A stretch of 41,435 nucleotides of DNA, taken from Clostridia bacterium. Its GTDB lineage: Bacteria; Bacillota; Clostridia; Oscillospirales; Acutalibacteraceae. Location of the stretch: contig JAFSIV010000022.1 of the NCBI GenBank assembly GCA_017439585.1, positions 1 through 41,435 of the forward strand, in the 5' to 3' direction. Shown piece by piece: positions 9,936-28,621 of the stretch (position 1 is the first letter of the stretch; each line of letters starts with the position of its first letter). The notes beneath the pieces are model-generated. The model was not told the origin of the DNA. It did not search any database and saw only the letters and a program-made list of their open reading frames with translations. Position numbers and translations under genes: made by a program.

Positions 9936-10172
9936 ATTGTCGCTCGTGTCGCGACTGGCACACCCTTTCTTATGTAGGCGAAAAGAAAGGGTGGAAAGAT
10001 TCGCCTAAGGGGGAATTTCGATTTCCCACTTAGGTGTCAAATGAAAAATTGTATAGAAACGCCGCCAAAGAGTGAAAACGGTGTTTTCAATTTGGCGGCA
10101 AGTTAGGTTTGAGGTTATAGCCTGTTTTCCGACACCTTAACCCCCTTAAACGACAAGGGCTTTGCCCTTGAC
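9936..10172 (+). repeat. Dispersed five-hairpin repeat, copy A
   Basis: The first of three related copies in the window. In order: GTCGC/GCGAC hairpin with a 7-nt loop, ACCCTTTCTT/AAGAAAGGGT hairpin, a stem CGCCTAAGGGGGA/TCCCACTTAGGTG, a long stem GCCGCCAAA...TTGGCGGC with inner GAAAAC/GTTTTC, then CAAGGGC/GCCCTTG. No start codon with a ribosome site and no sizeable ORF are seen. It fills most of the 9804-10237 gap between convergent genes; the rest of that gap is the terminator and AT-rich sequence. Confidence 0.85.
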
Positions 10173-10237
10173 CTATTTGCGAGTAGTTAAGACTGGGAAT
10201 AAAATATCTATTCAATAGATGAGTGAATATTTTTAAT

Positions 10238-11722
10238 TTAATTTTCTAATGAAGAACTGTCAAGCTCGGTATAGCTTGCAAAAAACTCTTTTAAAGCTTC
10301 AATATCCTTATTAATACCGCCTATTTTTTCGTTTTCAAAATTCATCGGCATAACAGGGTCATGCACCGAGAGTCTGAGCAAAAACCAACCGCTTTCGGTT
10401 GAAACTCTGATACCCTCGCGGTTATCATCGGCAACGGTGTATTTTTCGGGGTTATTTAAAGCGAACTGCTCTAAATCTTTAATGATTTTTTCACCGTATG
10501 CCTTGAAATCGGGGGTTTTTATATCAAAGCGAACTTCCTTTTCCTCGGCAGGCATTTTAACCTTATCAACAATAGCGTTAATATCGGTGCCGAGAGCGAG
10601 TTCAATTACTATTTTGGTAACCAAATATGCACCGTCATCAAGGAAAAAGTTTTCCTTTAAAGCGGCATGACCTGAGGTTTCGATAGCTAAGGGACATTCT
10701 TTACTCTCGTTTGTTAATTCTATCGCCTTATTTATAACATTTTTATAGCCTCGGCGATAGCGGTAATGGGTGCAGCCTAGCTCGTTTTGGAGAAAATCCT
10801 TTAAACCGTCGCTCGTAACCGAATCGGTAACAATATATGCATTTTCTTTGCCCTTGGAGGATATATATGCAGCAAGGGCGATAAGGCGATTGCGGTTTAT
10901 TTCTTTACCGAATTTATCAACACAGCCTGCGCGGTCAACATCGGTATCGAAAATAAGACCTAAATCGGCGCCCGATTCTTTAACCGCATCGCAAATGCTC
11001 TTCATAGCGGTTTTATCCTCTGGGTTTGGAATATGGTTGGGGAACATACCGTCAGGCTCTAAGAATTTACTGCCCTCTATATTAGCACCCAGCCTTGCGA
11101 GAACATCTCTCGCATAAAAACCGCCAACGCCGTTACCCGCGTCAACAACAATTTTATAGCCTTTGAGTGGCAAATCTTTTTCAGATTTACCTACTGCTTC
11201 GCAAATCATTCTTCTGAGTCTGCCGGCATATAGGGACATAAAGTTGATATTTGCAACAGTTCCTGCACAGTTGCAGATAATTTCCTCGCCATTATTTGCG
11301 AGTTTTACGATTTCTGAAATATCAGAACCGTCAAGTCCGCCCTCTCGGGTAAAAAATTTAAGACCGTTACGGTCAAACGGATGGTGGCTTGCGGTGATTT
11401 CGATAGCGGCATCGGTTCTTAAATCTATTGTTGACATAAACATAGCAGGGGTTGAGCAGAGACCGAAGTCAAGCACATTCACTCCCGCATTTATTAAAGC
11501 CTTGCGAACATTAGAGGAAATTTCTTCGCCTGTTATACGGGAATCATGTCCCACCGCGAATAAAAGCTCGTTAGGGCTTTTCTCGAATTTATTAATATAC
11601 CAAACAACAAAAGCGGCAGTTATATCGTATACTGCCTCAGAGGTTAAATTAACCTCTTTTCCTCCAAGACTGCTTGCAATACCGCGGATATCGGTACCGC
11701 TTTTTAAAGAACTGTAATCCAT
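10238..11722 (-). CDS. Phosphomannomutase/phosphoglucomutase
   Basis: A 494-residue alpha-D-phosphohexomutase interconverting hexose 1- and 6-phosphates for cell-surface sugar and glycogen metabolism. The phosphoserine loop is TASHHPFDRNG (Ser at about 112), the metal loop DTDVDR (Asp 259, 261, 263), and the sugar-binding loop ETSGH (348-352). The C-terminal domain has the phosphate-binding region around STESGWFLLRLS. The active loop reads SHHP where SHNP is usual. The length fits the ManB/Pgm (COG1109) group. Choosing between mannose and glucose substrates is not possible by eye. The ATG follows GAAAGG, and a 40-codon gene ends 12 bp upstream. Confidence 0.9.
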   Translation of the reverse strand: MDYSSLKSGTDIRGIASSLGGKEVNLTSEAVYDITAAFVVWYINKFEKSPNELLFAVGHDSRITGEEISSNVRKALINAGVNVLDFGLCSTPAMFMSTIDLRTDAAIEITASHHPFDRNGLKFFTREGGLDGSDISEIVKLANNGEEIICNCAGTVANINFMSLYAGRLRRMICEAVGKSEKDLPLKGYKIVVDAGNGVGGFYARDVLARLGANIEGSKFLEPDGMFPNHIPNPEDKTAMKSICDAVKESGADLGLIFDTDVDRAGCVDKFGKEINRNRLIALAAYISSKGKENAYIVTDSVTSDGLKDFLQNELGCTHYRYRRGYKNVINKAIELTNESKECPLAIETSGHAALKENFFLDDGAYLVTKIVIELALGTDINAIVDKVKMPAEEKEVRFDIKTPDFKAYGEKIIKDLEQFALNNPEKYTVADDNREGIRVSTESGWFLLRLSVHDPVMPMNFENEKIGGINKDIEALKEFFASYTELDSSSLEN

Positions 11723-11734
11723 AGTAAATCCTTT

Positions 11735-11857
11735 CTATGCGCCGAAAAAGAATCTTGCCGAGATATATCCAATCCCCAAAAGAGCTAAGACCGACACAGT
11801 ATAAATCAATGATTTTAAAAATAGTTTTAATGATGTTTTATCAGTTTTATTATTCAA
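11735..11857 (-). CDS. 40-residue single-pass membrane microprotein
   Basis: Read from TTG 11855-11857 to TAG 11735-11737: a basic N terminus (NNKTDKTSLKLFLKS) then one hydrophobic helix (LIYTVSVLALLGIGYISARF) and a short tail. The ribosome binding site GAGGTG (11865-11870) is well placed. The gene ends 12 bp before the phosphohexomutase start, so the two are likely co-transcribed. No family was recognised. It could be a membrane-tethering or regulatory partner, or a small orphan; only the start signal and hydrophobic pattern support it. Confidence 0.5.
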   Translation of the reverse strand: MNNKTDKTSLKLFLKSLIYTVSVLALLGIGYISARFFFGA

Positions 11858-11919
11858 TAGCCTACACCTCAAAAGAAGTTTTGGCAAAATTTTAAAATTT
11901 TAAACCTCGGGAGAAATTT

Positions 11920-12438
11920 ATGACCGTTTACGAAATACATAAAAATCGGCTTAAAATAAAGCTTAGCGATACAGAGGTTTTAGCTCTTTTCGGAAGCTAT
12001 ACGAAGCTTTTTGAAATGAAAAAAGAAACTAAAATTTTAATAAGTCTATTGCTTAAAGATATTTTGGCTAAGCGAAATAAAGGCTTTAAAAACGGAAAAA
12101 TATCTGCCGATTTAAAGGTTATAAAAAATTTCGGCTGCGAAATTTATATTTTTTGCAGCGAAGAGCCTAAAAGCCAAGCTGCCGTTTTTGAATTTAAGAG
12201 TTTTGAAAATTTAATAGGTGGAATTAAAGTCTTAAAAGAAACCGAAATTGAAAGCTCGCTTTATAAATATAATGATTGCTATTATCTCATAGCAGATAAC
12301 GGGATTTCAGATTTTCCGATAAATGATTTTTATTCTTTTCGAACCGAGTCTTATGTATTTTTAGAAAAGGTTAAAGAATACGGAAAAATGATAATTAAGG
12401 AAAACGCGGTTAAGCTTTTAGCCGAGACTTTTAATTAG
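11920..12438 (+). CDS. MecA-like adaptor protein (putative)
   Basis: 172 residues. The N-terminal segment (VYEIHKNRLKIKLSDTEVLA) and the C-terminal half, with SLYKYNDCYYLIADN, YSFRTESYVFLEKVKEYGKM and IIKENAVKLL, resemble MecA, the adaptor that delivers substrates to ClpC for degradation. Similarity is weak by eye and the acidic linker typical of Bacillus MecA is short or absent, so this may be a divergent clostridial member. The ATG follows CGGGAG. Its 3' end overlaps the convergent rpe gene by 21 bp, so neither gene has room for its own terminator beyond the stop. Confidence 0.55.
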   Translation: MTVYEIHKNRLKIKLSDTEVLALFGSYTKLFEMKKETKILISLLLKDILAKRNKGFKNGKISADLKVIKNFGCEIYIFCSEEPKSQAAVFEFKSFENLIGGIKVLKETEIESSLYKYNDCYYLIADNGISDFPINDFYSFRTESYVFLEKVKEYGKMIIKENAVKLLAETFN

Positions 12439-13065
12439 CTTAACATTTTCTTCCATTTGCTCAGAGAAAACAAAGCTTCCTGCAACCAAGACATCTGCGC
12501 CGGCTTTAACTGCCAAAGGCGCAGTTTCTTTATTTATGCCACCGTCAACCTCTAACATAATGTCAAGCCCTAATCGGTCAATTTCGCGTCTTAAAACAGT
12601 TAACTTATCCAAAGCCGAGGTTAAAAATTTCTGACCGCCAAAGCCTGGTTCTACCGACATAACCAAAACCATATCGCAAAGAGGCAAGAGGTCAAAAATT
12701 TCTTCGGGAGCGGTGCAGGGTTTAATGGTGATACAGGATTTAATACCATAAGAACGGATTTGCTTTAAGGTTTCGGCATTATCGCTTCCTGCTTCATAAT
12801 GAAATCCTAAAATATCGGAGCACTCTGCAAAATCCTTTATGTATCTATGAGGCTCGGTTATCATTAAATGAACATCTAAGGGAAGCTTGGTGTGCTTTCT
12901 GATAGATTTTATAATCGGAACACCGAAAGAAATGTTTGGAACAAAAATACCATCCATAACATCGAGGTGAAGCATATCAGTGCCCGCTTTTTCCAAGCGC
13001 TCAATATCCTTTGCTAATTCTAGAAAATCAGATGTTAACACAGAAGGAGAAATTTTAACCGACAT
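12418..13065 (-). CDS. rpe: Ribulose-phosphate 3-epimerase
   Basis: A 215-residue TIM-barrel enzyme interconverting ribulose 5-phosphate and xylulose 5-phosphate in the pentose phosphate pathway. Diagnostic motifs: ISPSVLTSDF at the start, LHLDVMDGIFVPNISFG, HLMI, MSVEPGFGGQKF and EVDGGI. Metal-binding His and Asp residues are in place. In Bacillus subtilis rpe follows rsgA in the prkC cluster; here it stands alone with its own promoter, about 16 kb away from rsgA. It overlaps the convergent mecA-like gene at the 3' end by 21 bp. Confidence 0.95.
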   Translation of the reverse strand: MSVKISPSVLTSDFLELAKDIERLEKAGTDMLHLDVMDGIFVPNISFGVPIIKSIRKHTKLPLDVHLMITEPHRYIKDFAECSDILGFHYEAGSDNAETLKQIRSYGIKSCITIKPCTAPEEIFDLLPLCDMVLVMSVEPGFGGQKFLTSALDKLTVLRREIDRLGLDIMLEVDGGINKETAPLAVKAGADVLVAGSFVFSEQMEENVKLIKSLG

Positions 13066-13118
13066 TTTTTAAACCATCCTATAAATATATGTATAAATTT
13101 TTGTATTTTTATGTATAA

Positions 13119-13147
13119 ATTTTAATATATTTTAATTGTTTTGTCAA
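13119..13147 (-). promoter_or_regulatory. Sigma-A promoter of rpe
   Basis: Minus strand TTGACA (13142-13147), 17-bp spacer, TAAAAT (13119-13124). The leader contains two copies of ATGTATAAATTT (13089-13100 and 13111-13122) 22 bp apart, the second touching the -10 box. Confidence 0.75.
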
Positions 13148-13193
13148 TATATAGTATATGCAAAAAAATTAATACATAAAGTTTAAAATTTTC

Positions 13194-13222
13194 TTGACAA
13201 ATAAAGAGTTTTTTGCTAAAAT
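13194..13222 (+). promoter_or_regulatory. Sigma-A promoter of the rplU-prp-rpmA operon
   Basis: TTGACA (13194-13199), 17-bp spacer, TAAAAT (13217-13222). It is followed by a leader of about 90 nt. Confidence 0.85.
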
Positions 13223-13227
13223 GGTTA

Positions 13228-13319
13228 AGCCGCATATTGTGGGCTTTTTAAGTTGCGCCCGAAAAATTGGGTGTGCGCCTATTGTAGCGAGACTGTAAAA
13301 TGATGGCAGGTGTAAAAAA
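13228..13319 (+). ncRNA. Structured leader of rplU (L21-leader type)
   Basis: The leader between promoter and L21 start contains an AAGCC/GGCTT hairpin (about 13227-13249), a GCGCCC/GGGTGTGCGC hairpin (about 13255-13277) and a purine-rich 3' part up to GGCAGGTG. Position and layout fit the ribosomal protein L21 leader known from Firmicutes, which is thought to mediate autoregulation. The assignment is by position and hairpins, not by a model search. Confidence 0.6.
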
Positions 13320-13625
13320 ATGTACGCAATTATTGAGACCGGCGGCAAGCAGTACCGTGTTCAAAACGGAGACGTTATCTATGTTGAGAAGCTCGGCGCC
13401 GAGGTTGACGAGGAAGTTACTTTCGACAAGGTTGTTGCTGTTAGTAACAGAACTTTAAAGGTTGGTAAGCCTTATGTGAAGGATGCTTTCGTTAAGGGTA
13501 CCGTTTTAAAGAACGGCAAGGGTAAGAAGATTACCGTTTTCACTTACAAACCCAAGAAAAGCAGCTCACGCAAAATGGGCCACAGACAGCCTTACACTAA
13601 GGTACAAATTACCGAAATCGGTTAA
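13320..13625 (+). CDS. rplU: 50S ribosomal protein L21
   Basis: A 101-residue protein with the L21 start [20 protein letters not shown] and the C-terminal [14 protein letters not shown] signature, full length for the family. It is a 23S rRNA-binding large-subunit protein. First gene of the L21-Prp-L27 operon; the leader upstream probably provides feedback control. Confidence 0.98.
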
Positions 13626-13630
13626 TTGGT

Positions 13631-13951
13631 ATGACTAGTGTGAAGTTTTTGATTGACGGAAAAGGTCTTTATGGCTTTTGCGTCAAGGGTCACAGTTCGA
13701 AAGATTGTGGCGATGAGACCGGTAAAATCGTATGCGCGGCGGTTTCCTCAGCTTGCTATATGGCAGCTAATACTATAACCGAAATTATAGGAGACGAGGC
13801 AAACGCAGTTGTTGACGATGCATTAATGGAATTTAAGGTTTTAAATCCAACCGATAGTTCGGTTAAGGTTTTAGAGGGCTTAAAGCTTCATTTAGAGGAA
13901 TTATCCGGTCAATACAGTAATAACATAACTATATTCGGAGGTGCAAAATAA
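13631..13951 (+). CDS. prp: Ribosomal-processing cysteine protease Prp
   Basis: A 106-residue protease that removes the N-terminal extension of L27 in Firmicutes and relatives. The catalytic His is in KGHSS (about residue 21) and the catalytic Cys in [10 protein letters not shown] (about residue 35). The L27 encoded immediately downstream has the matching extension, so substrate and enzyme are co-encoded. Spacing is tight: 5 bp after rplU, and its stop overlaps the rpmA start by one base. The ribosome binding site is weak, so translational coupling to rplU is likely. Confidence 0.93.
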
Positions 13952-14235
13952 TGTTAAAGCTTAATATTCAGTTGTTCGCTCATAAAAAAGGTGTGGGTTC
14001 AACCAAGAACGGCCGTGATAGTGAGTCCAAGAGACTTGGTGTAAAGCGTGCAGACGGTCAGTTTGTTTTGGCAGGCAACATTCTTGTTCGCCAAAGAGGA
14101 ACTCATATCCACGCAGGCAACAATGTTGGCCGTGGCTCTGACGATACTCTTTTTGCTCTTATCGACGGTAAGGTAAAATTCGAGCGTGTAGGCAGAGACC
14201 GTAAACAGGTAAGTATTTACGCTGTTGAGCAGTAA
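13951..14235 (+). CDS. rpmA: 50S ribosomal protein L27 with cleavable N-terminal extension
   Basis: 94 residues. The N terminus [18 protein letters not shown] contains the Prp recognition sequence; cleavage after Phe 9 leaves a mature protein starting AHKKG, whose tail reaches the peptidyl transferase centre. The rest matches L27 ([30 protein letters not shown]). The ATG follows GGAGG at a good distance. Confidence 0.98.
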
Positions 14236-14241
14236 TTTTTA

Positions 14242-14279
14242 AAATCCGGCGGCTAGCAGCTGACCGGATTTATTTTTTA
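14242..14279 (+). terminator. Intrinsic terminator after rpmA
   Basis: AAATCCGG (14242-14249) pairs with CCGGATTT (14264-14271), with a small inner hairpin, then ATTTTTTAT. It separates the ribosomal operon from the zinc-ribbon and obgE genes, probably allowing some read-through since no strong promoter is seen after it. Confidence 0.7.
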
Positions 14280-14299
14280 TTTTGAAAGGATTATGGCTT

Positions 14300-15957
<1,658 letters not shown>

Positions 15958-15967
15958 GGTGAGTTAA

Positions 15968-16360
15968 ATGGAAAATGTGAATTTGCTAAGCCCTTCGGTT
16001 TTAGCTTTTGTCGGAGATGCGGTTTACGGGCTTTATGTCAGAACAAAGCTTGCAGAGGTTAACCGACCGTCAGGTGAGCTTCATAAGCTTTCGGTAAAAT
16101 TGGTTAGCGCGCCTGCGCAGGCCAAGGCTTACGCTATTATAGAGGATAAACTTTCAGAAAAAGAAATTTCTATTTTCAAAAGAGGAAGAAATTTCCATAC
16201 CTCATCTGCTCCTAAAAGCGCAACTAAGGGAGAATATCATACTGCGACAGGTCTGGAATCCCTTTTTGGATACCTTTATTTAGAGGGCAATACTGCAAGG
16301 GCAGACGAGTTGTTTAATATAATATGGATTGGTATGAACCAAAATCAGACCGAGAATTAG
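15968..16360 (+). CDS. mrnC: Mini-ribonuclease III
   Basis: A 130-residue RNase III catalytic domain without the dsRNA-binding domain, which matures 23S rRNA ends in Firmicutes. The active-site signature is FVGDAVYGLYVRTKL, with the second acidic cluster in GLESLFGYLYLEGN. It is usually found near cysS; here it is the last gene after obgE, followed by a terminator. The ATG follows GGGTGAG 5-6 nt upstream. Confidence 0.92.
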   Translation: MENVNLLSPSVLAFVGDAVYGLYVRTKLAEVNRPSGELHKLSVKLVSAPAQAKAYAIIEDKLSEKEISIFKRGRNFHTSSAPKSATKGEYHTATGLESLFGYLYLEGNTARADELFNIIWIGMNQNQTEN

Positions 16361-16380
16361 ACTTTATAAATATAAAAATT

Positions 16381-16418
16381 TCGTATTTTTGGTAAAAATG
16401 CTGAAAATACGATTTTTT
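16381..16418 (+). terminator. Intrinsic terminator after mrnC
   Basis: TCGTATTTT (16381-16389) pairs with AAAATACGA (16404-16412), followed by TTTTTTC. Confidence 0.75.
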
Positions 16419-16429
16419 CAAAAAAACAC

Positions 16430-16458
16430 TTTACAACTTTATCTTAATAAAGTATAAT
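16430..16458 (+). promoter_or_regulatory. Sigma-A promoter of the amino acid ABC transporter operon
   Basis: TTTACA (16430-16435), 17-bp spacer, TATAAT (16453-16458), 35 bp before the start codon of the binding protein gene. Confidence 0.8.
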
Positions 16459-16492
16459 AGCAACATCAACTAAATTTTAAGGAGAAATTGAA

Positions 16493-17278
16493 ATGAAAAA
16501 AATATTAGCAGTTTTATTATGTTTAGCAATGGTATTCAGCTTTGCGGCTTGCGGCAAGGATGATACCGTAGTTGTAGGTTATACTATTTATGAGCCTATG
16601 AATTATCTTGATGAAAACGGTGACCTTATCGGTTTTGATACTGAGCTTGCTGAAAAGGTTTTCGAGAATTTAGGTATGGATGTTACATTCAAGGAAATCC
16701 AATGGGAAAACAAGTATACTGATTTAGCTTCCGGAACTATTGATTGCATCTGGAACGGTTTCACCGCTAACGCTAAGGATGATGACGGTATCGAGAGAAG
16801 CGAAAAGGTTGATTTTTCATATAACTATATGATGAATAAGCAGGTTGTTGTTTATAATCTTGATGGCGAAGAAATTAAAGAGGCTGATAGCATTAAGGGT
16901 AAGGTTGGTGCTGCTGAAAGCGGTTCTGCCGGCGAATCTTATGCAAAGGGCTTTGAAGGTATCGTATTCAAGGGCGTAACAAAGCAGACCGATGCTCTTT
17001 TAGAGGTTTTATCTAAAACAGCAGCTTTCGCAGTAGTTGATGAGCAGTTGGCTAAGAGCTATTGCGGCAAGGGCGACTATGCAAAATTAGCTTATGCTGA
17101 CGAGCTTTCAAGCGACGCAGAATATTATGCAATCGGCTTTGAAAAGGGCAGTGAGCTTACCGAAAAGGTTAATGCAGAAATCGTTAAATTAGCAGAAGAC
17201 GGCACTATCACTAAGCTTGCTAAGAAGTACGGTGTTGAAAATACCGCTATCGTAGATTACGCTGACCAAGTAAAATAA
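16493..17278 (+). CDS. Polar amino acid ABC transporter substrate-binding lipoprotein
   Basis: 261 residues. A lipoprotein signal peptide ends in FSFAACGKD (Cys at about 20), anchoring the protein to the outer face of the membrane. The rest is a type-3 solute-binding fold (SBP_bac_3), with YTIYEPMNYLDENGDLIGFD at the N terminus and the hinge and ligand segments TDLASGTIDCIWNGFT and GKVGAAESGSAGESY. The family binds glutamine, cystine, arginine and similar amino acids; specificity cannot be assigned. It is the first gene of the SBP-permease-ATPase operon, separated from the permease gene by a hairpin. Confidence 0.92.
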   Translation: MKKILAVLLCLAMVFSFAACGKDDTVVVGYTIYEPMNYLDENGDLIGFDTELAEKVFENLGMDVTFKEIQWENKYTDLASGTIDCIWNGFTANAKDDDGIERSEKVDFSYNYMMNKQVVVYNLDGEEIKEADSIKGKVGAAESGSAGESYAKGFEGIVFKGVTKQTDALLEVLSKTAAFAVVDEQLAKSYCGKGDYAKLAYADELSSDAEYYAIGFEKGSELTEKVNAEIVKLAEDGTITKLAKKYGVENTAIVDYADQVK

Positions 17279-17304
17279 TTTTTACATAATTTAAGTAGTT
17301 TGGC

Positions 17305-17335: not shown

Positions 17336-17360
17336 TTAGTGTTTTGGAGTTATAAAAGCT

Positions 17361-18083: not shown

Positions 18084-18096
18084 GGAGGGGAAAGGC

Positions 18097-19139: not shown

Positions 19140-19168
19140 AAAACCGCCATTTAAAATGGCGGTTTTGT
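19140..19168 (+). terminator. Intrinsic terminator of the transporter operon
   Basis: AAAACCGCCATTT and AAATGGCGGTTTT form a near-perfect stem with a minimal loop, followed by GTTTATTT. The rest of the 19136-19497 gap holds repeat copy B. Confidence 0.88.
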
Positions 19169-19247
19169 TTATTTATATAACGAGAATCACGGAATAAATG
19201 CGTGGTTCAATAAAGGTTAACTGATGAAATATTTTATCGAAATAGAG

Positions 19248-19483
19248 ATTGTCGCTCATGCCGCGACAGGCACGCCCTTTCTTATGTAGGCGAAAAGAAA
19301 GGGCGAAAAGATTCGCCTGAGGGGGAATTTCGATTTCCCCCTTAGGTGACAAAATTTATTCACTTAAAAATGCCGCCAAAGAGTGAAAACAATGTTTTCA
19401 ATTTGGCGGCAAGTTTCTATATTTTTTATAGTGGCATCATTGTCACCCTAACCCCCTTAAACGACAAGGACTCCGCCCTTGAC
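19248..19483 (+). repeat. Dispersed five-hairpin repeat, copy B
   Basis: Same order of hairpins as copy A: GTCGC/GCGAC; GCCCTTTCTT/AAGAAAGGGC; TCGCCTGAGGGGGAA/TTCCCCCTTAGGTGA; GCCGCCAAA...TTGGCGGC with inner GAAAAC/GTTTTC; and a degenerate CAAGG...CCTTG. It lies between convergent genes (transporter operon and DUF4363 gene). No coding potential is seen. Confidence 0.85.
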
Positions 19484-19497
19484 TCGGGTGGTATTTA

Positions 19498-20692: not shown

Positions 20693-22321
20693 ATGGATGA
20701 AAAAAATATAGCTTATGAAGTTGTAGACGGCGAAGCCGTTCCTGTTTCTGAAACTAACCCGAAGCGTTTTGATATAAACGGCAAGGATAATGCTTTTAAG
20801 ATTATTATCGCGGTTTGTTCTGCCTTGCTTGCGGTTTTCGGTATTTTTGATGGTTTCAGAATGGGCTTTACTATAACCTCGATAACCTTATTTACCGCCC
20901 TTACGGTTTATCTTGCAGGTGCTAAAACAAGGTTTAGCTTTTTCGGTGTTATTTGCGGACTTATAAACTTAATTACCGCAACAAGCTTTACTATAACTTC
21001 AAACGGCGGTATAAGATTTTTAACCGTTTTGAGTATGGTTATATTGTCGGCAATATGGTTTGTTTCATTATCGGCTAATATCAATAAAAAGAGCGATTTT
21101 GCTTTGCTTTCTTATATTTTTGTGCCCTTTGCTCAGAGCTTTACGGTAAATCTTCCAAAAAGCTTAAAGGCGGTATTTTCAAGCAGACCTAAAAAACGTT
21201 GGGCTTTCGGTAAAGCACTTTTAGGTTTTATACTTGCGGTACCTGTGCTTATGATTGTTTTGCCTTTGCTCATTTTGTCCGACGAAGCCTTTTCAGGTCT
21301 TGTTACCAACCTATTAAAGAGCAATATCTTTACTGTGTTCGAGGTTTTGGTTGGACTGATTATTGGTTTCTTTATATTCAGCTATTGCTTAACTCTCAAA
21401 AAGAGAGAGGTTTATGAAGGAAAAAGTATAGAAATGGGCGCGATAGACAGCACTATTCTGGTTTCCTTTCTTTCGGTTATAAGTGTTTGCTATTTCGCAT
21501 ATCTCTTTTCTCAGTTGGCATACTTCTTTGATGCATTCAAAGGAATTTTACCTAAGGACTATTCCTTTACATTTGCTGAATATGCCCGTCGCGGTTTCTT
21601 TGAGATGTGTATTATCGCGGTTATAAACTTTGTTATTATAAGTCTAGTAATTCTTTTTGCCAGAAAGAAGGACGGTAAGCTATCCGCAGGGCTTAAAACT
21701 CTTTGCAGCTTTGTAGGCTTTTTTACATTGGTTATTATAAACACCGCTCTTTCAAAAATGTTCTTATATATTAAGAGCTACGGTATGACCGAGCTTAGAA
21801 TAACAACGAGCGCATTTATGGTATTTTTAGAAATTGTATTTTTAAGTCTTTTGCTTAAACTTTTCTTTAAACGAGTAAGGGTGCTCAGAGCAGCTATTGT
21901 AACCGCCGCTTGTGTGCTCACAGTTTTAGGCACTGTTAATATGAATTTTGTTATTGCAAATTATAATTATAATGCCTATAAATCGGGAGCTTTAAAGGAA
22001 ATGGATGTTAACACCATTTATAAGATGGGCGATGAGGGTGTTCCATATCTTGTTAAGCTAACGAAGGATGAGAATGCCGAGGTTTCAAGCGCTGCCGAGA
22101 GCAAGCTTCAAAAAATTATAGATAGCGATAAATACTATAAAACCAAGGTTAAAGAGGAAATTGATATTGAAGGCTTTAAGACCTTGAGGGTATACGAAAT
22201 TGAGGAAAAAAAGTATGACGGGGTAGGTAAGTACAGTATTTCTCGCGATAAGGTATACGAAGCATTAGATAAATATATTGAAGAAAACGGCGATGCTTTG
22301 GTTAGAGAGGAATATTTTTAA
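20693..22321 (+). CDS. DUF4173 family polytopic membrane protein
   Basis: 542 residues from ATG 20693 (AAAGGA lies at 20678-20683). A short acidic N terminus is followed by about ten hydrophobic segments and the DUF4173 motifs FAEYARRGFFEMC and YGMTELRI. A C-terminal soluble region of about 120 residues has a HEAT-like repeat (GDEGVPYLVKLTKDENAEVS). The family is of unknown function and sometimes found near two-component systems. It is monocistronic: own promoter and terminator. Confidence 0.8.
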   Translation: MDEKNIAYEVVDGEAVPVSETNPKRFDINGKDNAFKIIIAVCSALLAVFGIFDGFRMGFTITSITLFTALTVYLAGAKTRFSFFGVICGLINLITATSFTITSNGGIRFLTVLSMVILSAIWFVSLSANINKKSDFALLSYIFVPFAQSFTVNLPKSLKAVFSSRPKKRWAFGKALLGFILAVPVLMIVLPLLILSDEAFSGLVTNLLKSNIFTVFEVLVGLIIGFFIFSYCLTLKKREVYEGKSIEMGAIDSTILVSFLSVISVCYFAYLFSQLAYFFDAFKGILPKDYSFTFAEYARRGFFEMCIIAVINFVIISLVILFARKKDGKLSAGLKTLCSFVGFFTLVIINTALSKMFLYIKSYGMTELRITTSAFMVFLEIVFLSLLLKLFFKRVRVLRAAIVTAACVLTVLGTVNMNFVIANYNYNAYKSGALKEMDVNTIYKMGDEGVPYLVKLTKDENAEVSSAAESKLQKIIDSDKYYKTKVKEEIDIEGFKTLRVYEIEEKKYDGVGKYSISRDKVYEALDKYIEENGDALVREEYF

Positions 22322-22337
22322 AGTTTAGATTAATTAA

Positions 22338-22364
22338 AACCCACTTGCAGTGCAGGTGGGTTTT
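22338..22364 (+). terminator. Intrinsic terminator after the DUF4173 gene
   Basis: AAAACCCACTTGC and GCAGGTGGGTTTT form a stem with a 3-nt loop and one mismatch, and the right arm provides the T-run. Confidence 0.8.
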
Positions 22365-22374
22365 ATGGTATAAT
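22345..22374 (+). promoter_or_regulatory. Possible promoter nested in the preceding terminator
   Basis: TTGCAG (22345-22350), 18-bp spacer, TATAAT (22369-22374). It is the only candidate promoter for the gene at 22403 and overlaps the terminator stem of the previous gene. Confidence 0.4.
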
Positions 22375-22402
22375 TAGGAAAACAAAATTCAGGAGGGTTT
22401 TT

Positions 22403-23110
22403 ATGGAAAATAAAATCGATAAAAAGGTGCCGATAATAATACTAACGGCAGCATCATTTCTTTTGTCGTTTAGTCCGATTATAAATTGGATATTTAATTC
22501 TATCTTTTTTAAAGCTCGTTATTCGGGTATAAGTTCAATTAATATTATTTTATCTTTTTTAATTTCTGCTGTGCTTTATTTGGTATGGGCAGCTAATATT
22601 GCTTTTTTGGAAGAAAAATTAAATAAGCCATTCGGAATAATAGCGACCTATGGCATTTTAGTTATAAATTTTTTAGTTTCTGTGATTTTTGAAATTATTT
22701 TTACTATTCAAGGATTTCAAACAATTCGTTACAGCGGTGTTTCGGGAATAATAAGCAGTATGTCAGGTGTTTTAAATATTATAGTTTGTATTTTAGCAGC
22801 AGTTGGTTTATTGGCTGCGGGTATATTCTTATTTGTTGGCAAAGAGAAACTGGTTAAAAATATTTCTCTAATTGTTATGGCGATTTTAATAGTAGCTGCT
22901 ATTATCAGTTTGTTAATATATATTTTTACAAATGTTGTATCTTTGTTTAATGGAATTCTGTTTAATTTTATTATTACAAGAATCATTGGTGTTTTTGGAA
23001 TTATATCTGCTATTCCATTTTATGCTAGCATAATGCTTTATTTCAAAGCCAATAAAGTTCCGTCTTTTAAGAAAGTGGAAGAAACTGAGGAAGTTATAGA
23101 AGTTAGGTAA
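22403..23110 (+). CDS. Hypothetical six-pass membrane protein
   Basis: 235 residues, not recognised. About six hydrophobic segments are spread over residues 10-215 with very short loops, and the C terminus is charged (KKVEETEEVIEV). The ribosome site CAGGAGGG is strong. It is monocistronic between the DUF4173 gene and the convergent khpA operon. Base use is more AT-rich than in neighbouring housekeeping genes, which may only reflect its hydrophobic composition. Confidence 0.65.
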   Translation: MENKIDKKVPIIILTAASFLLSFSPIINWIFNSIFFKARYSGISSINIILSFLISAVLYLVWAANIAFLEEKLNKPFGIIATYGILVINFLVSVIFEIIFTIQGFQTIRYSGVSGIISSMSGVLNIIVCILAAVGLLAAGIFLFVGKEKLVKNISLIVMAILIVAAIISLLIYIFTNVVSLFNGILFNFIITRIIGVFGIISAIPFYASIMLYFKANKVPSFKKVEETEEVIEVR

Positions 23111-23132
23111 GCTGAATAATATAAAAAAACAG

Positions 23133-23156
23133 ACCCCTTTATCTGGATAAAGGGGT
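23133..23156. terminator. Bidirectional intrinsic terminator
   Basis: ACCCCTTTATC (23133-23143) pairs with GATAAAGGGGT (23146-23156). In the minus direction it is followed by a run of seven T, so it chiefly serves the ylxM-ffh-rpsP-khpA operon; in the plus direction the tail is weaker. Confidence 0.85.
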
Positions 23157-23164
23157 TTAAATAT

Positions 23165-23398
23165 TTAGTCTATTTCAACCGAAATATTTTGTTCTTGTCT
23201 GCTTGCGGCGGCGCGCATAACGGTTCTGATAGCATTAGCAATTCTGCCTTGCTTTCCTATAACTCTGCCCATATCGCTTTCAGCAACTGTTAAATGATAA
23301 ACAGTAACACCTTCTGCGTTAGGCTCGTCAACCGTTACTTTAACCTCTTCGGGTTTTTCAACCAAACCGCTAGCAAGAGAAATTAAAAGTTCTTTCAT
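23165..23398 (-). CDS. khpA: KH-domain RNA-binding protein KhpA
   Basis: A 77-residue KH domain protein. The GxxG loop is in GRVIGKQGRIANAIR. KhpA, with KhpB/Jag, binds RNA and influences cell elongation in Firmicutes. Its place directly after rpsP is conserved (ylqC position). The rimM-trmD-rplS genes that often follow are absent; a terminator ends the operon here. Confidence 0.93.
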   Translation of the reverse strand: MKELLISLASGLVEKPEEVKVTVDEPNAEGVTVYHLTVAESDMGRVIGKQGRIANAIRTVMRAAASRQEQNISVEID

Positions 23399-23434
23399 TA
23401 AAATTCCCTCACTGAATTAACTGGTAGGATTTAA

Positions 23435-23677
23435 TTAAAGTACACCGTTCTTTTTAAGTAAAGCTTTAACGGTATCGGTAGGTTGAGCACCCTTAGAAAT
23501 CCAATCCTTAGCTTTATCACCGTCGATATTAACAGCGGCGGGGTTCTTGGTAGGATCGTAAGTGCCGATTTCTTCGATAAAACGACCATCACGAGGATAT
23601 CTTGAATCTGCAACAACTACACGGTAGAAAGGAGCTTTTTTAGCGCCCATACGACGAAGTCTGATTTTAACTGCCAT
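23435..23677 (-). CDS. rpsP: 30S ribosomal protein S16
   Basis: 80 residues with the S16 signature [20 protein letters not shown] and [20 protein letters not shown]. It binds 16S rRNA in early small-subunit assembly. The ribosome site GGAGGTG is strong. It lies between ffh and khpA. Confidence 0.98.
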
Positions 23678-23726
23678 TTTTTACACCTCCGTTTTTTAAT
23701 ATTTATTTCAAGGTAATAATTTTAAC

Positions 23727-25079
23727 CTAAAAACCGAAATTACCGGGGCCTCCCGGGAAATTCATACCGCGCATCATTTTGCGCTTAGCGCCTTTTGAGT
23801 TCATTTGCTTGAACATTTTCTTCATCTGTTCATATTGCTTTAATAGTCGGTTTACGTCTTCAACCTTAACGCCAGCACCCGCCGCGATACGCTTTCTTCT
23901 TGAAGCATTTAGAATTTCGGGTTTGGCTTTTTCTTTTTTGGTCATAGACTTGATAATTGCCTCGGTGCGAAGCATAATTCTATCGTCTATATCAACATCG
24001 CGAAGCTGTTTATCCATACCCGGAAGCATTGATAAAACACTTTTTAGAGAGCCCATTTTTTTAATCTGCTCAAACTGGTCTAAAAGGTCATTTAAATCAA
24101 ATTTGTTTTCTTCGAGTTTTTTAAGCTGTTCTTCTGCTTTTTTCTCGTCAATTTCAGATTCAACCTTTTCGATAAGAGAAAGAACATCGCCCATACCTAA
24201 AATACGGGAAGCCATACGGTCGGGATGAAATTCTTCAAGCTCGTCAAGCTTCTCGCCAACACCCGCGAACATAATCGGCTTGCCTGTTACGGCTCTGACA
24301 GATAAAGCCGCGCCGCCTCTTGTATCACCGTCTAGCTTGGTTAGGATAACACCGTCAATTTCGAGTATATCATTAAAGGCTTTTGCAATGTTAACCGCGT
24401 CCTGACCGACCATAGAGTCGATAACTAATAGAATATTATCAACCTCAACCGCTTCTGTTATGCGTTTTAGCTCATCCATAAGCTCGGTATCAATATGAAG
24501 TCTACCCGCGGTATCAAGGATTAAATAATCGTGCCCATAATCGCGGGCGAAATTTACAGCTTTCTGAGCTATTATTTCGGGCTTTTCGGTTCCCATTTCA
24601 AAAACGGGAGCACCAACTGCCTCGCCTACAATCTTTAACTGCTCGATAGCAGCAGGTCTATATATATCGCAGGCGGCAAGCATAGGTCTATGCCCCTGAG
24701 ATTTTAAAAGCTTTGCAAGCTTTGCTGAATGGGTTGTTTTACCTGAACCCTGTAAACCGCACATCATAATAATAGTTGGAATTTTGTTTGCAGTTTTGAG
24801 TCTTGCCTGCTCGTTACCCATTAAGGCGGTAAGCTCTTCTTTAACAATTTTGATTACCATTTGCGGCGCGGTTAAGCTTTCCATAACATTTGCGCCAATG
24901 CATTTTTCGGTAACCTGATTTGTAAAATCCTTGGCAACTTTATAGTTAACATCGGCTTCGAGGAGAGCTAATCTAACTTCGCGCATAGCGGTTTTAACAT
25001 CCGATTCATGAAGCTTACCCTTAGAACGCAGACGCTTAAAAACGCCGCTTAGCTTATCGGATAAATTATCAAAAGCCAT
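23727..25079 (-). CDS. ffh: Signal recognition particle protein Ffh
   Basis: A 450-residue GTPase that, with 4.5S/scRNA, targets membrane and secreted proteins to FtsY and Sec. The N domain is followed by G-domain motifs GLQGSGKTTHSAKLA (about 107-121), DTAGRLHID and TKLDGDTRGG. The methionine-rich M domain occupies the C-terminal third (SVLSMLPGMDKQL, MKKMFKQMNSKG, RGMNFPGG). The SRP RNA and FtsY are not in this window. It lies 12 bp downstream of ylxM, whose product is thought to modulate SRP. Confidence 0.97.
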   Translation of the reverse strand: MAFDNLSDKLSGVFKRLRSKGKLHESDVKTAMREVRLALLEADVNYKVAKDFTNQVTEKCIGANVMESLTAPQMVIKIVKEELTALMGNEQARLKTANKIPTIIMMCGLQGSGKTTHSAKLAKLLKSQGHRPMLAACDIYRPAAIEQLKIVGEAVGAPVFEMGTEKPEIIAQKAVNFARDYGHDYLILDTAGRLHIDTELMDELKRITEAVEVDNILLVIDSMVGQDAVNIAKAFNDILEIDGVILTKLDGDTRGGAALSVRAVTGKPIMFAGVGEKLDELEEFHPDRMASRILGMGDVLSLIEKVESEIDEKKAEEQLKKLEENKFDLNDLLDQFEQIKKMGSLKSVLSMLPGMDKQLRDVDIDDRIMLRTEAIIKSMTKKEKAKPEILNASRRKRIAAGAGVKVEDVNRLLKQYEQMKKMFKQMNSKGAKRKMMRGMNFPGGPGNFGF

Positions 25080-25091
25080 AGCTCTTCTCCT

Positions 25092-25388
25092 TTACAAATT
25101 TTCTATGATTTCAAAAAGCTCGGTTTTTTTGCTATCATCAAAATTGCTTGATAATTCTTTGAGCCTCGAAAACTTTTCCAAATAACCGCATTTCTCTTCA
25201 AAGATTAAAAGCTGAGCTTCGGCGCGCTTAATAAGGTCGCAAACGGCTTGCCTTGTTATACCCTCGTTTTCGGCTATTTCGGAAAGGGATAAATCATCAT
25301 TATAATAATGTTCGGTAACAATTCTTTGCTTTTCGCTTAAAAATTCGCCATAGACATCAAGCAAAGAAGAAATTTTAAGATTTTTCAC
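25092..25388 (-). CDS. ylxM: YlxM family sigma-like HTH protein (SRP-associated)
   Basis: 98 residues with a sigma-70 region 4-like helix-turn-helix (LSLSEIAENEGITRQAVCDLI) and an N-terminal helix SEKQRIVTEHYYNDD. YlxM precedes ffh throughout Firmicutes and has been linked to the SRP system. It starts at GTG 25386-25388 with GAGG 8 nt upstream. It is the first gene of the ylxM-ffh-rpsP-khpA operon. Confidence 0.9.
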   Translation of the reverse strand: MKNLKISSLLDVYGEFLSEKQRIVTEHYYNDDLSLSEIAENEGITRQAVCDLIKRAEAQLLIFEEKCGYLEKFSRLKELSSNFDDSKKTELFEIIENL

Positions 25389-25411
25389 TTAAAACACCTC
25401 ACTAAGATAGG

Positions 25412-25440
25412 AGTATATCATAAATTTTACCCACTGTCAA
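25412..25440 (-). promoter_or_regulatory. Sigma-A promoter of the ylxM-ffh operon
   Basis: Minus strand TTGACA (25435-25440), 17-bp spacer, TATACT (25412-25417). Confidence 0.8.
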
Positions 25441-25478
25441 GTATTTTTCTTTACACCTGAAAAAAATTTAAATTTTTC

Positions 25479-25507
25479 TTTACTTTTTTAAAATTATGTG
25501 GTAAAAT
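25479..25507 (+). promoter_or_regulatory. Sigma-A promoter of rpsO
   Basis: TTTACT (25479-25484), 17-bp spacer, TAAAAT (25502-25507). Confidence 0.65.
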
Positions 25508-25511
25508 AATC

Positions 25512-25639
25512 AGGCTGATACTGTAAAAGGCAGATTTCGGCTTCTACCGTATACTATGCTTTGGGCGACTGCTCTTAAAGAGATGCCTCATGGCCTATGG
25601 CTTGGTTTGCGGAAAAATTTAAGAGAGGAGTAAACGAAA
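25512..25639 (+). ncRNA. Long leader of rpsO, possible S15 autoregulatory RNA
   Basis: About 125 nt separate the predicted start point from the S15 ATG. The leader has a GGCAGA...TCTACC hairpin (about 25529-25548) and further GC-rich segments around CATGGCCTATGGC. S15 commonly regulates its own mRNA through such leaders, with unrelated structures in different phyla; which class this belongs to is not clear by eye. Confidence 0.45.
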
Positions 25640-25903
25640 ATGACAAAAGAGATGAAGCAACAGATTATGGTTGAGTATGCAACTCACGAGGGCGACACCG
25701 GTTCTCCCGAAGTTCAGATTGCTGTGCTCACATATCGTATCAACGAGCTCAATGCTCACTTAAAGGATCATCCGAAGGATAAGCACTCTTACAGAGGTCT
25801 TCTCAAAATGGTTGGTCATAGAAGAAACCTTTTAGCATATTTGCAGAAGGTTGACATTGAGAGATACCGTTCACTTATTAAGCGTTTAGGTATCCGTAAG
25901 TAA
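25640..25903 (+). CDS. rpsO: 30S ribosomal protein S15
   Basis: 87 residues with the family core [40 protein letters not shown] and [20 protein letters not shown]. It binds the 16S central domain. The ribosome site GAGAGGAG is well placed. It is followed by its own terminator and then pnp, the conserved rpsO-pnp order. Confidence 0.98.
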
Positions 25904-25916
25904 TTATCAAATACAA

Positions 25917-25950
25917 AAGGCAGGCGACAGGAATTGTTGTCTGCCTTGTT
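25917..25950 (+). terminator. Intrinsic terminator after rpsO
   Basis: AAGGCAG and CTGCCTT (25917-25923 and 25941-25947), with inner CGACA/TGTTG pairing, then GTTGT. The T-run is weak, so read-through into pnp is likely. Confidence 0.65.
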
Positions 25951-25959
25951 GTAAATAAA

Positions 25960-26044
25960 CGGGAGTTTTTTATTGTTAGCGATAATTCGAGGGTCTGATT
26001 GATTTTATCAGGCTTTGGCATTATTGCTAAATGAAAATCTCCCG
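25960..26044 (+). ncRNA. Structured leader of pnp
   Basis: Three nested or stacked pairings: outer CGGGAG (25960-25965) with CTCCCG (26039-26044), middle TTAGCGATAAT (25976-25986) with ATTATTGCTAA (26020-26030, one G-T pair), inner CTGAT (25995-25999) with ATCAG (26007-26011). It ends about 10 nt before the pnp ribosome site. Long leader stems control pnp in other bacteria (RNase III/PNPase autoregulation in E. coli); that this one does the same is inference. Confidence 0.65.
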
Positions 26045-26067
26045 AAAATAGAAAAGGAGATATTAAG

Positions 26068-28245
26068 ATGTTTGAGAATTACAAGGTTTATGAAACCGAG
26101 CTTGCCGGCAGAGCTTTAAAGCTTGAAACCGGTATGATGGCTGGTCTTGCAAATGCTGCTGTTATGTCTTGCTATGGTGATACAAGAGTTCTTTGTACCG
26201 TAACTGCTTCTGCAAAGCCACGCGAGGGTGTTGATTTCTTCCCGTTATCAGTTGATTATGAGGAGAAAATGTATTCAGTTGGTCGTATTCCCGGCTCTTT
26301 CACAAGACGCGAGGGAAAAGCTAGCGATAAGGCTATTTTAGCTTCTCGCTGTATTGACCGTCCTATCCGTCCTTTGTTCCCTAAGGATATGAGAAACGAT
26401 TGTTCAGTTGTTGCGACCGTTATGTCGGTTGACCCTGACTGTTCACCTGAAATTGCTGCTGCTATCGGTGTTTCTGCCGCTATCGCTATTTCGGACATCC
26501 CTTGGGCAGGTCCTATTTCGAGCGTTAATGTAGGTTTGGTTGACGGTGAAATCATTATTAACCCAACCTTAGAGCAAAGAGCTAAAACCGACCTTAATTT
26601 AACCGTTTCTTCAACCGAAGATTTGGTTGCTATGATTGAGGCAGGCGCTAATGAAATTGATGATGATTTAATGTTTGACTGCATTATGGCAGGTCATGAG
26701 GAAAACAAGAAAATCGTTAAATTCATAAACGGTATCGTCGCAGAAATCGGCAAAGAAAAGTTTGCTTTTGAATCTAATGACCCCGACCCTGAAATTTTTG
26801 CAGAGATGGAAAGCTTTTGCATAGAGGGTGTTAAAAAAGCACTTGATACTGATGATAAATTAGTTCGCGATGCGGCTTTGCTTCCTATTAGCAACGCTTT
26901 GCACGAGAAGTATGACGCTCAGTTTGAGGGTCAGGAAGGTAAAATTGACGAGATTTTATATTTAATTCAGAAGCATGTTGTTCGCGCTTGGCTTAAAGAC
27001 GAGAAAAAGCGTGTTGACGGCAGAGGTATTGATGAAATCCGTCCTCTCGATGCTAAGGTTGATTTATTACCCCGAGTTCATGGCTCAGGTATGTTTACCC
27101 GCGGTCAGACTCAGGTATTATCTATTGCAACATTAGCTCCTGTTTCCGAAGCTCAAAAGCTTGACGGACTTGACGAGGAAACCTCTAAGAGATATATCCA
27201 CCATTATAATTTCCCCTCATATTCAGTTGGCGAAACCAAGCCATCCAGAGGCCCTGGTAGACGTGAAATCGGTCATGGCGCATTAGCAGAAAAGGCATTA
27301 GTTCCTGTAATTCCCTCGGTTGAGGAATTCCCTTATGCTATCCGCGTTGTTTCCGAGGTGCTTTCTTCTAACGGTTCAACCTCTCAGGGCTCTATCTGTG
27401 GTTCAACCTTGGCTCTTATGGCTGCGGGTGTTCCGATTAAGGCTCCTGTTGCAGGTATTTCTTGCGGACTTATCACCGGAGACGAGGGTGTTTACGGCGA
27501 CTTTATGACTATGGTTGATATCCAAGGTCTTGAAGATTTTTATGGCGATATGGACTTTAAGGTTGCAGGTACTCACAAGGGTATCACCGCAATTCAGATG
27601 GACTTAAAGGTTCATGGTCTTACTCCTGCTATCATTAAAGAAGCATTTGCCAAAACCCATAAAGCAAGACTTCATATTTTAGATGAGGTTATGCTAAAAT
27701 GTATCCCTGAATACAGAACTGAGCTTTCAAAATATGCTCCTAAGATGCTTTCAACCGTTATCAGTCCTGATAAAATCGGTGATGTTATCGGTAAGCAGGG
27801 TAAGGTTATTCAGTCTATCCAAGAGCAATGCGATGTTACTATTAATATCGAGGAAGACGGTCATGTATTTGTTGCAGGTCTTGATACCGAAAAGGCTAAG
27901 CAGGCTATTTCTATTATAGAGCTTATCGCAAATGACCCAGAGGTTGGCGCAGTTTATAACGGCAAGGTTACAAGACTTATGACCTTCGGCGCATTTGTTG
28001 AAATTGCTCCCGGTAAAGAGGGCTTAGTTCATATTTCAAAGCTTGATGTTAAGCGTGTTGAAAAGGTTGAAGATGTTGTTAATGTTGGCGATCAGGTACT
28101 CGTTAAGGTAACCGAGATTGATGAGCAGGGAAGAATTAATCTTTCTCGCAGAGATGCTTTGGTTGAGATTAACGGCGCGGTTGTAGAAGAGGGTGCTGAT
28201 GAAGAAGCTCCCAGAAAAAGCCGCAGAAATTTTAAGAAACATTAA
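26068..28245 (+). CDS. pnp: Polyribonucleotide nucleotidyltransferase (PNPase)
   Basis: A 725-residue phosphorolytic 3'-5' exoribonuclease, key in mRNA decay. Two RNase PH domains (about 1-215 and 310-545) flank the helical linker; the second holds RGQTQVLSIATL, GETKPSRGPGRREIGHGALA and the catalytic-site region MDLKVHGLTPAI. The KH domain (VISPDKIGDVIGKQGKVIQS) and the S1 domain (YNGKVTRLMTFGAFVEIAPG) follow. The length is normal. The start ATG is preceded by AAAGGAG. A structured leader and a strong terminator bracket it. Confidence 0.98.
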   Translation: MFENYKVYETELAGRALKLETGMMAGLANAAVMSCYGDTRVLCTVTASAKPREGVDFFPLSVDYEEKMYSVGRIPGSFTRREGKASDKAILASRCIDRPIRPLFPKDMRNDCSVVATVMSVDPDCSPEIAAAIGVSAAIAISDIPWAGPISSVNVGLVDGEIIINPTLEQRAKTDLNLTVSSTEDLVAMIEAGANEIDDDLMFDCIMAGHEENKKIVKFINGIVAEIGKEKFAFESNDPDPEIFAEMESFCIEGVKKALDTDDKLVRDAALLPISNALHEKYDAQFEGQEGKIDEILYLIQKHVVRAWLKDEKKRVDGRGIDEIRPLDAKVDLLPRVHGSGMFTRGQTQVLSIATLAPVSEAQKLDGLDEETSKRYIHHYNFPSYSVGETKPSRGPGRREIGHGALAEKALVPVIPSVEEFPYAIRVVSEVLSSNGSTSQGSICGSTLALMAAGVPIKAPVAGISCGLITGDEGVYGDFMTMVDIQGLEDFYGDMDFKVAGTHKGITAIQMDLKVHGLTPAIIKEAFAKTHKARLHILDEVMLKCIPEYRTELSKYAPKMLSTVISPDKIGDVIGKQGKVIQSIQEQCDVTINIEEDGHVFVAGLDTEKAKQAISIIELIANDPEVGAVYNGKVTRLMTFGAFVEIAPGKEGLVHISKLDVKRVEKVEDVVNVGDQVLVKVTEIDEQGRINLSRRDALVEINGAVVEEGADEEAPRKSRRNFKKH

Positions 28246-28254
28246 TATATAATG

Positions 28255-28288
28255 AAAAGGGTTGTATTGTTATAATACAACCTTTTTT
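28255..28288 (+). terminator. Intrinsic terminator of pnp
   Basis: AAAAGGGTTGTATT (28255-28268) pairs with AATACAACC (28274-28282) and the following T-run. The rest of the 28246-28813 gap holds repeat copy C, a small hairpin at 28667-28696 and the terminator at 28776. Confidence 0.88.
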
Positions 28289-28385
28289 ATATGCTTGATA
28301 TTAAGCTTTATAAGATAATTTTTAAATTTGTTGAAAACAACCCCAATACTATTATGGTACCTATTTACTGCCAGCGCTCAAATAG

Positions 28386-28621
28386 GTCAAGGGCGAAGCC
28401 CTTGTCGTTTGGGGGTTAGGGCGACAGTTATGTAACTATAAAACACATAAAAATTTGCCGCCAAATTGAAAACGCAGTTTTCACTCTTTGGCGGCGTTTT
28501 AATTGAAATTATTATTTCGTCGCCTAAGGGGGAAATCGAAATTCCCCCTCAGGCGAATCTTTCCGCCCTTTCTTTTCGCCTACATAAGAAAGGGTGTGCC
28601 CGTCGCGGCATGAGCGACAAT
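28386..28621 (-). repeat. Dispersed five-hairpin repeat, copy C (inverted)
   Basis: The same element as copies A and B, in opposite orientation. In the minus reading: GTCGC/GCGAC; CCCTTTCTT/AAGAAAGGG; TCGCCTGAGGGGGAA/TTCCCCCTTAGGCGA (fully paired apart from one G-T); GCCGCCAAA...TTGGCGGC with inner GAAAAC/GTTTTC; CAAGGGC/GCCCTTG. Just outside its end, ACCTATTT (28359-28366) can pair with AAATAGGT (28380-28387), adding a sixth stem. It lies between convergent pnp and spoVM. Confidence 0.85.

Follow-up and report, generated by a model that had tools for sequence, protein, structure and literature searches.

Contig JAFSIV010000022.1 of the Clostridia bacterium assembly GCA_017439585.1 (Acutalibacteraceae) is 41,435 nucleotides long and was analysed over its full length (the window). 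Between its genes lie three copies, A, B and C, of a 236-bp repeat, whose cores occupy positions 9936-10172 (+), 19248-19483 (+) and 28386-28621 (-). A first-pass annotation had placed the copies at these positions, and the near identity that it reported was confirmed at 82-88%, with 82.0% between A and B, 82.9% between A and C, and 88.3% between B and C (over 236-237 bp). Five hairpins were detected in each copy: in copy A (L001) at 9939-9955, 9963-9991, 10002-10036, 10061-10099 and 10154-10170; in copy B (L008) at 19251-19267, 19275-19303, 19314-19348, 19372-19410 and 19465-19481; and in copy C, on the reverse strand, at 28602-28618, 28566-28594, 28521-28555, 28457-28495 and 28388-28404. The core is an intergenic, non-coding repeat of five hairpins without genes, and its first hairpin, GTCGC-loop-GCGAC, is called the head below.

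The host assembly (G000), of which the window is contig C18, comprises 1.49 Mb in 23 contigs and is 87% complete; its sister genome, RGIG7186 (G041), comes from water buffalo caecum. A search of the host genome with copy A returned 19 matching places, comprising 16 contiguous near-complete copies (one without its right end), two pieces that rejoin as a single copy (L017/L019) and a fragment (L018). With the rejoined copy counted as the seventeenth and the fragment left out, the genome holds 14 near-complete copies in addition to A, B and C, and the 15 contiguous near-complete copies other than the query matched at E-values of 2.4e-68 to 7.5e-42. Copy C, used as query, added a right-end fragment on contig C10. 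Orientation relative to genes, taken from a simple open reading frame caller, could be classed for 37 of 41 copies (orthologues included), and as raw counts without a genome-wide baseline 22 lie between convergent genes, 14 between codirectional and 1 between divergent genes; the corresponding raw counts for the 17 host copies are 12, 5 and 0.

No named family fits the repeat, on the basis of Rfam, of phage and plasmid collections and of a literature search, which agrees with the first-pass annotation. At gathering thresholds Rfam returned only tRNAs in the window; copy A gave only sub-threshold, chance-like matches, and nine loci of other genomes gave sub-threshold matches together with an RNase P gene outside the repeat. 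Copy C matched nothing in the phage and plasmid collections, no description of the repeat was found among article titles and the opening lines of abstracts, and four forms of the head hairpin, sought in paper texts, did not occur there.

Pairing within the core

The predicted fold of copy C is 8.4 standard deviations (s.d.) below that of shuffled sequences when folded as RNA and 7.8 s.d. below when folded as DNA, with none of 200 shuffles as good in either case. A structure alignment was built from 36 distinct copies of 40, L013, L017, L024 and L065 being left out as truncated or diverged. Across the five hairpins, 97.6% of its 1855 cells are paired, and pairing falls to 44-54% when the partners are shifted along. 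Both-sided changes occur at 20 of 52 pairs, compared with 5.0 ± 1.5 in 500 shuffles, a comparison that is not a probability since the copies are mutually related. Such changes fall in five of the seven helices counted and are absent from hairpin 1 and from the foot of hairpin 3; hairpin 1 is invariant within the set, which therefore neither supports nor weakens it. The five hairpins proposed by the first-pass annotation as common to A, B and C are thereby borne out by compensatory changes, with an addition to their number, as a sixth, outer helix (GGYGAC/GTCRCC) surrounds hairpin 4. At the third pair of this helix 17 of 36 copies have C-G, 17 have T-A and 2 have neither. The helix is in competition with the foot of hairpin 3.

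Variants of the hairpin 1 stem were found in other genomes in a survey that accepted perfect stems only: GCCGC/GCGGC at one place, GCCAC/GTGGC at two and GTTGC/GCAAC at one. In the same survey, the hairpin 1 loop (yGCC) has a potential partner in the GGCd that follows the stem, the y-d pair being T-A at 101 of 140 places, G-C at 10, C-G at 9, T-G at 2 and non-complementary at 18. This complementarity between loop and tail may reflect either a pseudoknot or a second way of forming a hairpin, and a pseudoknot with such a short connection is doubtful.

IS200-like ends and uninterrupted sites

Copy B is part of a larger inserted unit. It is inserted behind the terminator-like hairpin of a Trp-repressor-like gene (19140-19166, +), and the corresponding site is uninterrupted in the sister genome (L173, contig C17 of G041), so that comparison of filled and empty loci, which the first-pass annotation had proposed for fixing the ends, sets the insertion at 19168-19497 (+; ends ±2), about 330 bp. 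This unit exceeds the core by 80 bp on the left and 14 bp on the right. Its left part holds an IS200-like left end (19172-19228, +), found with a profile of tnpA-bearing copies at E 1.6e-8 and by 81% identity at E 5e-9. The right part ends in a tip like the outer end of an IS200-like right end (19486-19497, +), seen by eye and not found by the right-end profile; the tip was apparently left behind by an internal deletion.

A conserved upstream end close to TATAACGAAAACCACGCG is found in five host copies (L002, L003, L005, L006 and copy B), directly behind a terminator-like hairpin in each. Three of them (L002, L005 and L006) also have a long downstream end, closed by a CCACCCGC-GCGGGTGG-type hairpin, and thus both ends of a tnpA-bearing element: matching ends on the left and right border a Y1 transposase frame of another genome (G016, L146), identified as IS200/IS605 TnpA (NF033573, E 7e-35), whose relatives of solved structure include the ISHp608 transposase. 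The host genome has two tnpA parts (PF01797) with identical flanks, one at an end of contig C1 and one at an end of C2, as is expected where assembly breaks at a repeat. Profiles of the left and right ends, built from tnpA-bearing copies only, matched upstream of 11 of 41 cores (E<1e-5) and downstream of 9 of 41 (E<1e-9), respectively. A 19-base left-end motif, scored at 14 or more matching bases on 40 of the 41 copies (one had too little upstream sequence), was present upstream of 14 cores, downstream of one and on the reverse strand of three; copy A is among the 14 and copy C is not.

Searched for in its own right, the left end occurs clearly at seven distinct sites of the host genome (eight matches, one being the reverse of a palindrome). 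One of these is followed by tnpA. At the other six the head hairpin lies 20-61 bases inward, as part of a near-complete core in five cases and as the head only in one (on contig C13). A weaker left end with a shortened core was seen by eye at C15:33.1k. In the sister genome the head adjoins four of five left ends, the fifth having neither head nor tnpA in the 0.8 kb inspected, and in G042 a left end lies within about 12 bases of six of 13 head copies. Since left ends in these three genomes carry the head where tnpA would be expected, the core, as judged by sequence comparison, occupies the place of tnpA between IS200 ends.

Fourteen orthologous regions were compared between the host and its sister. 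At three of them (copy B, L003 and L035) one genome has the insertion where the other is uninterrupted. At L035 the filled site belongs to the sister and the empty one to the host, and the unit, 384 bp long, has both IS200 ends. T-rich terminator tails are seen at all three uninterrupted sites, from which no fixed target word could be established; insertion behind terminators, as seen there, would fit the placement of copies between convergent and codirectional genes. No target duplication was found at copy B or L035 beyond a TT assignable to either side. Terminal inverted repeats were sought and not found at the ends of the three cores in the window, and in three IS200-ended units (copy B, L035 and L002) they were no better than in shuffled sequences (278, 173 and 80 of 500 shuffles, respectively, were as good). 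The absence of terminal inverted repeats and of a clear target duplication, on which the first-pass annotation had set the repeat apart from ordinary miniature inverted-repeat transposable elements (MITEs), accordingly holds. Outside the 14 regions, L011/L064 gave no clean site, nor did L026/L036, where the right parts are missing from both copies.

Copy A has the left-end motif only. A terminator-like hairpin and T tract, recognised by eye, precede it (9846-9877, +), and a decayed IS200-like left-end motif lies directly behind this terminator of the upstream gene (9874-9891, +; 14 of 19 bases, shuffle p 0.01), where neither the left-end profile nor BLAST found a left end. A possible decayed right-end hairpin (10198-10234, +) was likewise seen by eye and was not found by the right-end profile. 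In the sister genome the motif is retained though the remaining left half of copy A is gone. Three other species of the genus (G021, G023 and G024) keep the flanking genes of copy A without the repeat, a terminator or short spacer alone separating them, and in G024 a similar terminator has no repeat behind it.

Copy C, compared with the shared hairpin ends, shows only a weak right-end-like stretch (28759-28803, +; E 0.003) in the orientation opposite to its own, the orthologue of which is equally weak (E 0.005). The sister genome carries this copy at the orthologous site (L061), and no empty site was found for it; in 17 further genomes the flanking genes of copies B and C were not found adjacent. 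In those features that could be settled, copy B thus has the predicted make-up of a non-autonomous IS200 derivative, and copy C does not. The ends given by the first-pass annotation stand as those of the core; they are not the ends of the inserted unit, which lie further out at copy B and probably at copy A. Its suggestion of a hairpin-ended, IS200/IS605-like element moved in trans applies to about one third of the copies, to copy B by the empty site, left end and right-end tip and to copy A by the motif; most of the others, copy C included, show no IS200 left end.

Shortened forms of about 40 bp, with little beyond the head hairpin, were seen at L081, L180, L188, L189 and L190. A guess by eye is that they perhaps arose when the sequence between two direct repeats (CGCCCTT), one close to either end of the core, was deleted.

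The head in other genomes and copies without IS200 ends

A sequence pattern for the head hairpin, with up to two mismatches, matched at 22 places in the host genome, 16 in its sister, 141 in G043, 47 in G040, 26 in G051, 19 in G044, 16 in G046, 13 in G042, and two in each of two further assemblies, one from Bacteroidales and one from Babeliales; a control pattern matched in none of these ten. The Bacteroidales and Babeliales occurrences may stem from misbinned contigs. With one mismatch, the head was found in five of 394 genomes of the order, the host included, three having 10-20 places and two a single one; single matches are near noise, given that the control pattern matches once in each of three of the 394 genomes. 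In most lineages seen, the head is followed by a second hairpin of other sequence and then by differing tails. Among the matches listed for G043, heads form tandem runs with a spacing of about 75-100 bp, as well as inverted pairs whose members are separated by about 465-470 bp and in some cases by 620-740 bp. At L123, L097 and L070 of this assembly (CATNEU), inverted pairs of head units enclose small genes, as if these were cargo; by eye, they include a toxin-antitoxin-like pair and XRE-like regulators. Y1 matches are present in the head-rich genomes G051 and G044.

Some candidate occurrences were rejected. Of 12 head matches on viral contigs, 11 are GC-rich and unrelated by eye, and only L133 resembles the repeat; among 101 stretches of genome contigs, L052, L063, L073-L075, L082, L090, L094, L110 and L115 were likewise judged unrelated.

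In the host and sister genomes, GTAGGG/CCCTAC-type tags lie within 260 bp of nine of the 18 copies that lack an IS200 left end and of none of the nine that have one, a count in which some of the nine tagged copies are orthologues or neighbours of each other and so not independent. The window itself has GTAGGG at no place and CCCTAC at three. Stretches of this type, several palindromic by eye, flank L007, L010, L011, L015, L016, L017, L053, L064 and L091. Such tags may mark a second route by which end-less copies arrived, or merely shared insertion zones. The host genome also has a RAYT (REP-associated tyrosine transposase)-like gene (contig C7, L151), recognised by NF047646 at 80.6 bits against a cut-off of 80. 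The core profile has no match within the locus around this gene, and of 24 Y1 loci only two have a core match: in L165 a tail fragment at a distance of about 0.7 kb, and in L148 a head at about 1.4 kb. Copies of a small gene, DUF2493-like by eye, are found next to the repeat, or to pieces of it, on one side or the other at L007, L012, L091, L165 and L189. Downstream of the core at L085 lies a TGTCATTGCGAGCGAAGC-type palindrome, which we take to resemble the CGTC/TGTC class of repetitive extragenic palindromic (REP) sequences.

Readings of the repeat and its movement

The repeat family is real, and a vehicle is shown for part of its copies. In the best reading the repeat is probably a REP-like structured element carried as cargo of miniature IS200 elements, its function and movement being what we infer. 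In this genus a form of the core would have replaced tnpA inside an IS200/IS605-family element, and the resulting miniature element would consist of a left-end hairpin, the core and a right-end hairpin. The IS200 TnpA, a Y1 transposase of the HUH type acting in trans, would bind both end hairpins on single-stranded DNA, excise the unit and paste it 3' of T-rich terminator tails; pasting behind terminators would explain the gathering of copies between convergent genes. The core would be a passenger whose foldability is preserved by a constraint at the level of the single strand. Copies without ends, copy C included, would be old insertions with decayed ends, or would have arrived by another route, perhaps with GTAG-type REPs.

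Several observations weigh against the cargo reading. The core ends stay sharp in copies without IS200 ends, the head occurs in other genera without such ends, and 26 of 40 copies, of which copy C is one, fall short of the 14-match threshold for the left-end motif. G043 and G040, the two genomes with the most head copies, gave no Y1 match, and neither did G046, so that another mover must exist there unless the assemblies miss it. The tnpA frame of G016 is open and has no clear ATG start, and an unbroken tnpA is assembled nowhere in the host genome. Among the 14 orthologous regions, L003 is empty in the sister genome with its right end lost and a junction ambiguous over up to nine bases; five differ by loss of the left part in one genome (copy A/L175, L015/L169, L016/L174, L017/L170 and the second L091 copy/L178), one holds a deletion form common to both (L081/L180), and five are uninformative (L006, L005, L012, the first L091 copy and L053).

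Core ends that stay sharp where the flanks are unrelated would also be expected if the core were a REP-like mobile unit in its own right, served by a separate mover, a RAYT or other, and its presence inside IS200 ends were incidental capture. This stands at somewhat under an even chance, is compatible with the cargo reading, and may apply to those copies that have no IS200 ends. The 16-141 places of the head in other genomes, its tandem and inverted arrangement in G043, the tags near end-less copies and the RAYT-like gene of the host all speak for it; it is opposed by the lack of a core match at the RAYT-like locus and the rarity of such matches at Y1 loci, by a head without the GTRG foot of RAYT-moved REPs, and by the missing Y1 matches in G040, G043 and G046. 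A more tentative variant, which we consider rather unlikely, makes the head with its loop-tail interaction, the second hairpin and the variable tail a structured single-strand element of independent standing, a hitch-hiker packaged repeatedly by the ends of different Y1 transposons, with IS200 ends as vehicles here and perhaps GTAG REPs elsewhere, and shared by members of the Clostridia and sporadic in the Bacteroidales and Babeliales assemblies.

The compensatory changes in five of seven helices and in the outer helix, together with the stem variants and loop-tail complementarity of hairpin 1 in other genomes, would equally be expected of a structured RNA, a 3' untranslated region element or small RNA carried incidentally by mobile elements. 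The pairing that this option, one of those offered by the first-pass annotation, calls for is supported, but no Rfam family reaches threshold, the RNA is a prediction from sequence, the tightly matched head is patchy across the order, and palindromes in DNA may keep their pairing through a function of single-stranded DNA or through palindrome-correcting mutation; this origin is accordingly judged improbable. An ordinary MITE, moved by a DDE transposase and bounded by terminal inverted repeats, would likewise be repeated, non-coding and intergenic, but is very hard to reconcile with cores and IS200-ended units that have no such repeats, with the ambiguous TT at copy B and L035, and with the different arrangement of the inverted pairs in G043.

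As cargo of miniature IS200 elements, the repeat shares with the non-autonomous IS200/IS605 derivatives (ends-only forms and palindrome-associated transposable elements, PATEs) small size, the ends of a tnpA-bearing IS200 element, the absence of terminal inverted repeats and of a clear target duplication, and presumed movement in trans (PMC7290912). The published PATE-like example consists of ends and a tnpB remnant (PMC7290912), whereas the interior here is a conserved multi-hairpin repeat whose head is found in other genera without IS200 ends. With the GTAG REPs and REPINs of RAYT systems it shares extragenic multi-copy palindromes, occurrence as singles, tandem clusters and inverted pairs (the last in G043), and Y1 genes in some of the genomes that carry the head (PMC6006769, PMC3116915). 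It differs from them in having no GTRG foot (the foot is TTGTCGC or close), in its 236-bp body of five hairpins in this genus, and in not being found beside the RAYT-like gene of its own genome. The CGTC REPs have no dedicated transposase known, often lie between convergent or codirectional genes, and form stems of 8-9 bp starting with AT pairs, with loops of 4-5 bases and mostly a CCA tail (PMC3733652). The repeat has in common with them the TGTC at its foot, carriers in which no transposase was found, and convergent or codirectional placement, but its stem has 5 bp, its loop 7 bases and its tail the sequence GGC. The core thus fits neither REP super-family and is REP-like in kind; the first-pass comparison with REP or bacterial interspersed mosaic elements (BIMEs) is sound in that sense, the head being arranged like a REP in other genomes, and breaks down at the defining tags of both super-families.

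That some REPs have no dedicated transposase and are possibly moved by others is posed as an open question in a published account (PMC3733652). The repeat described here would offer a natural case, with filled and empty sites in comparison with a sister genome, of a conserved, foldable, non-coding repeat replacing the transposase gene inside IS200 ends, and a repeat caught in a known Y1 vehicle makes one answer to the question of REP movement testable. If true, cargo transport by IS200 ends would partly account for the gathering of such repeats behind terminators between convergent genes.

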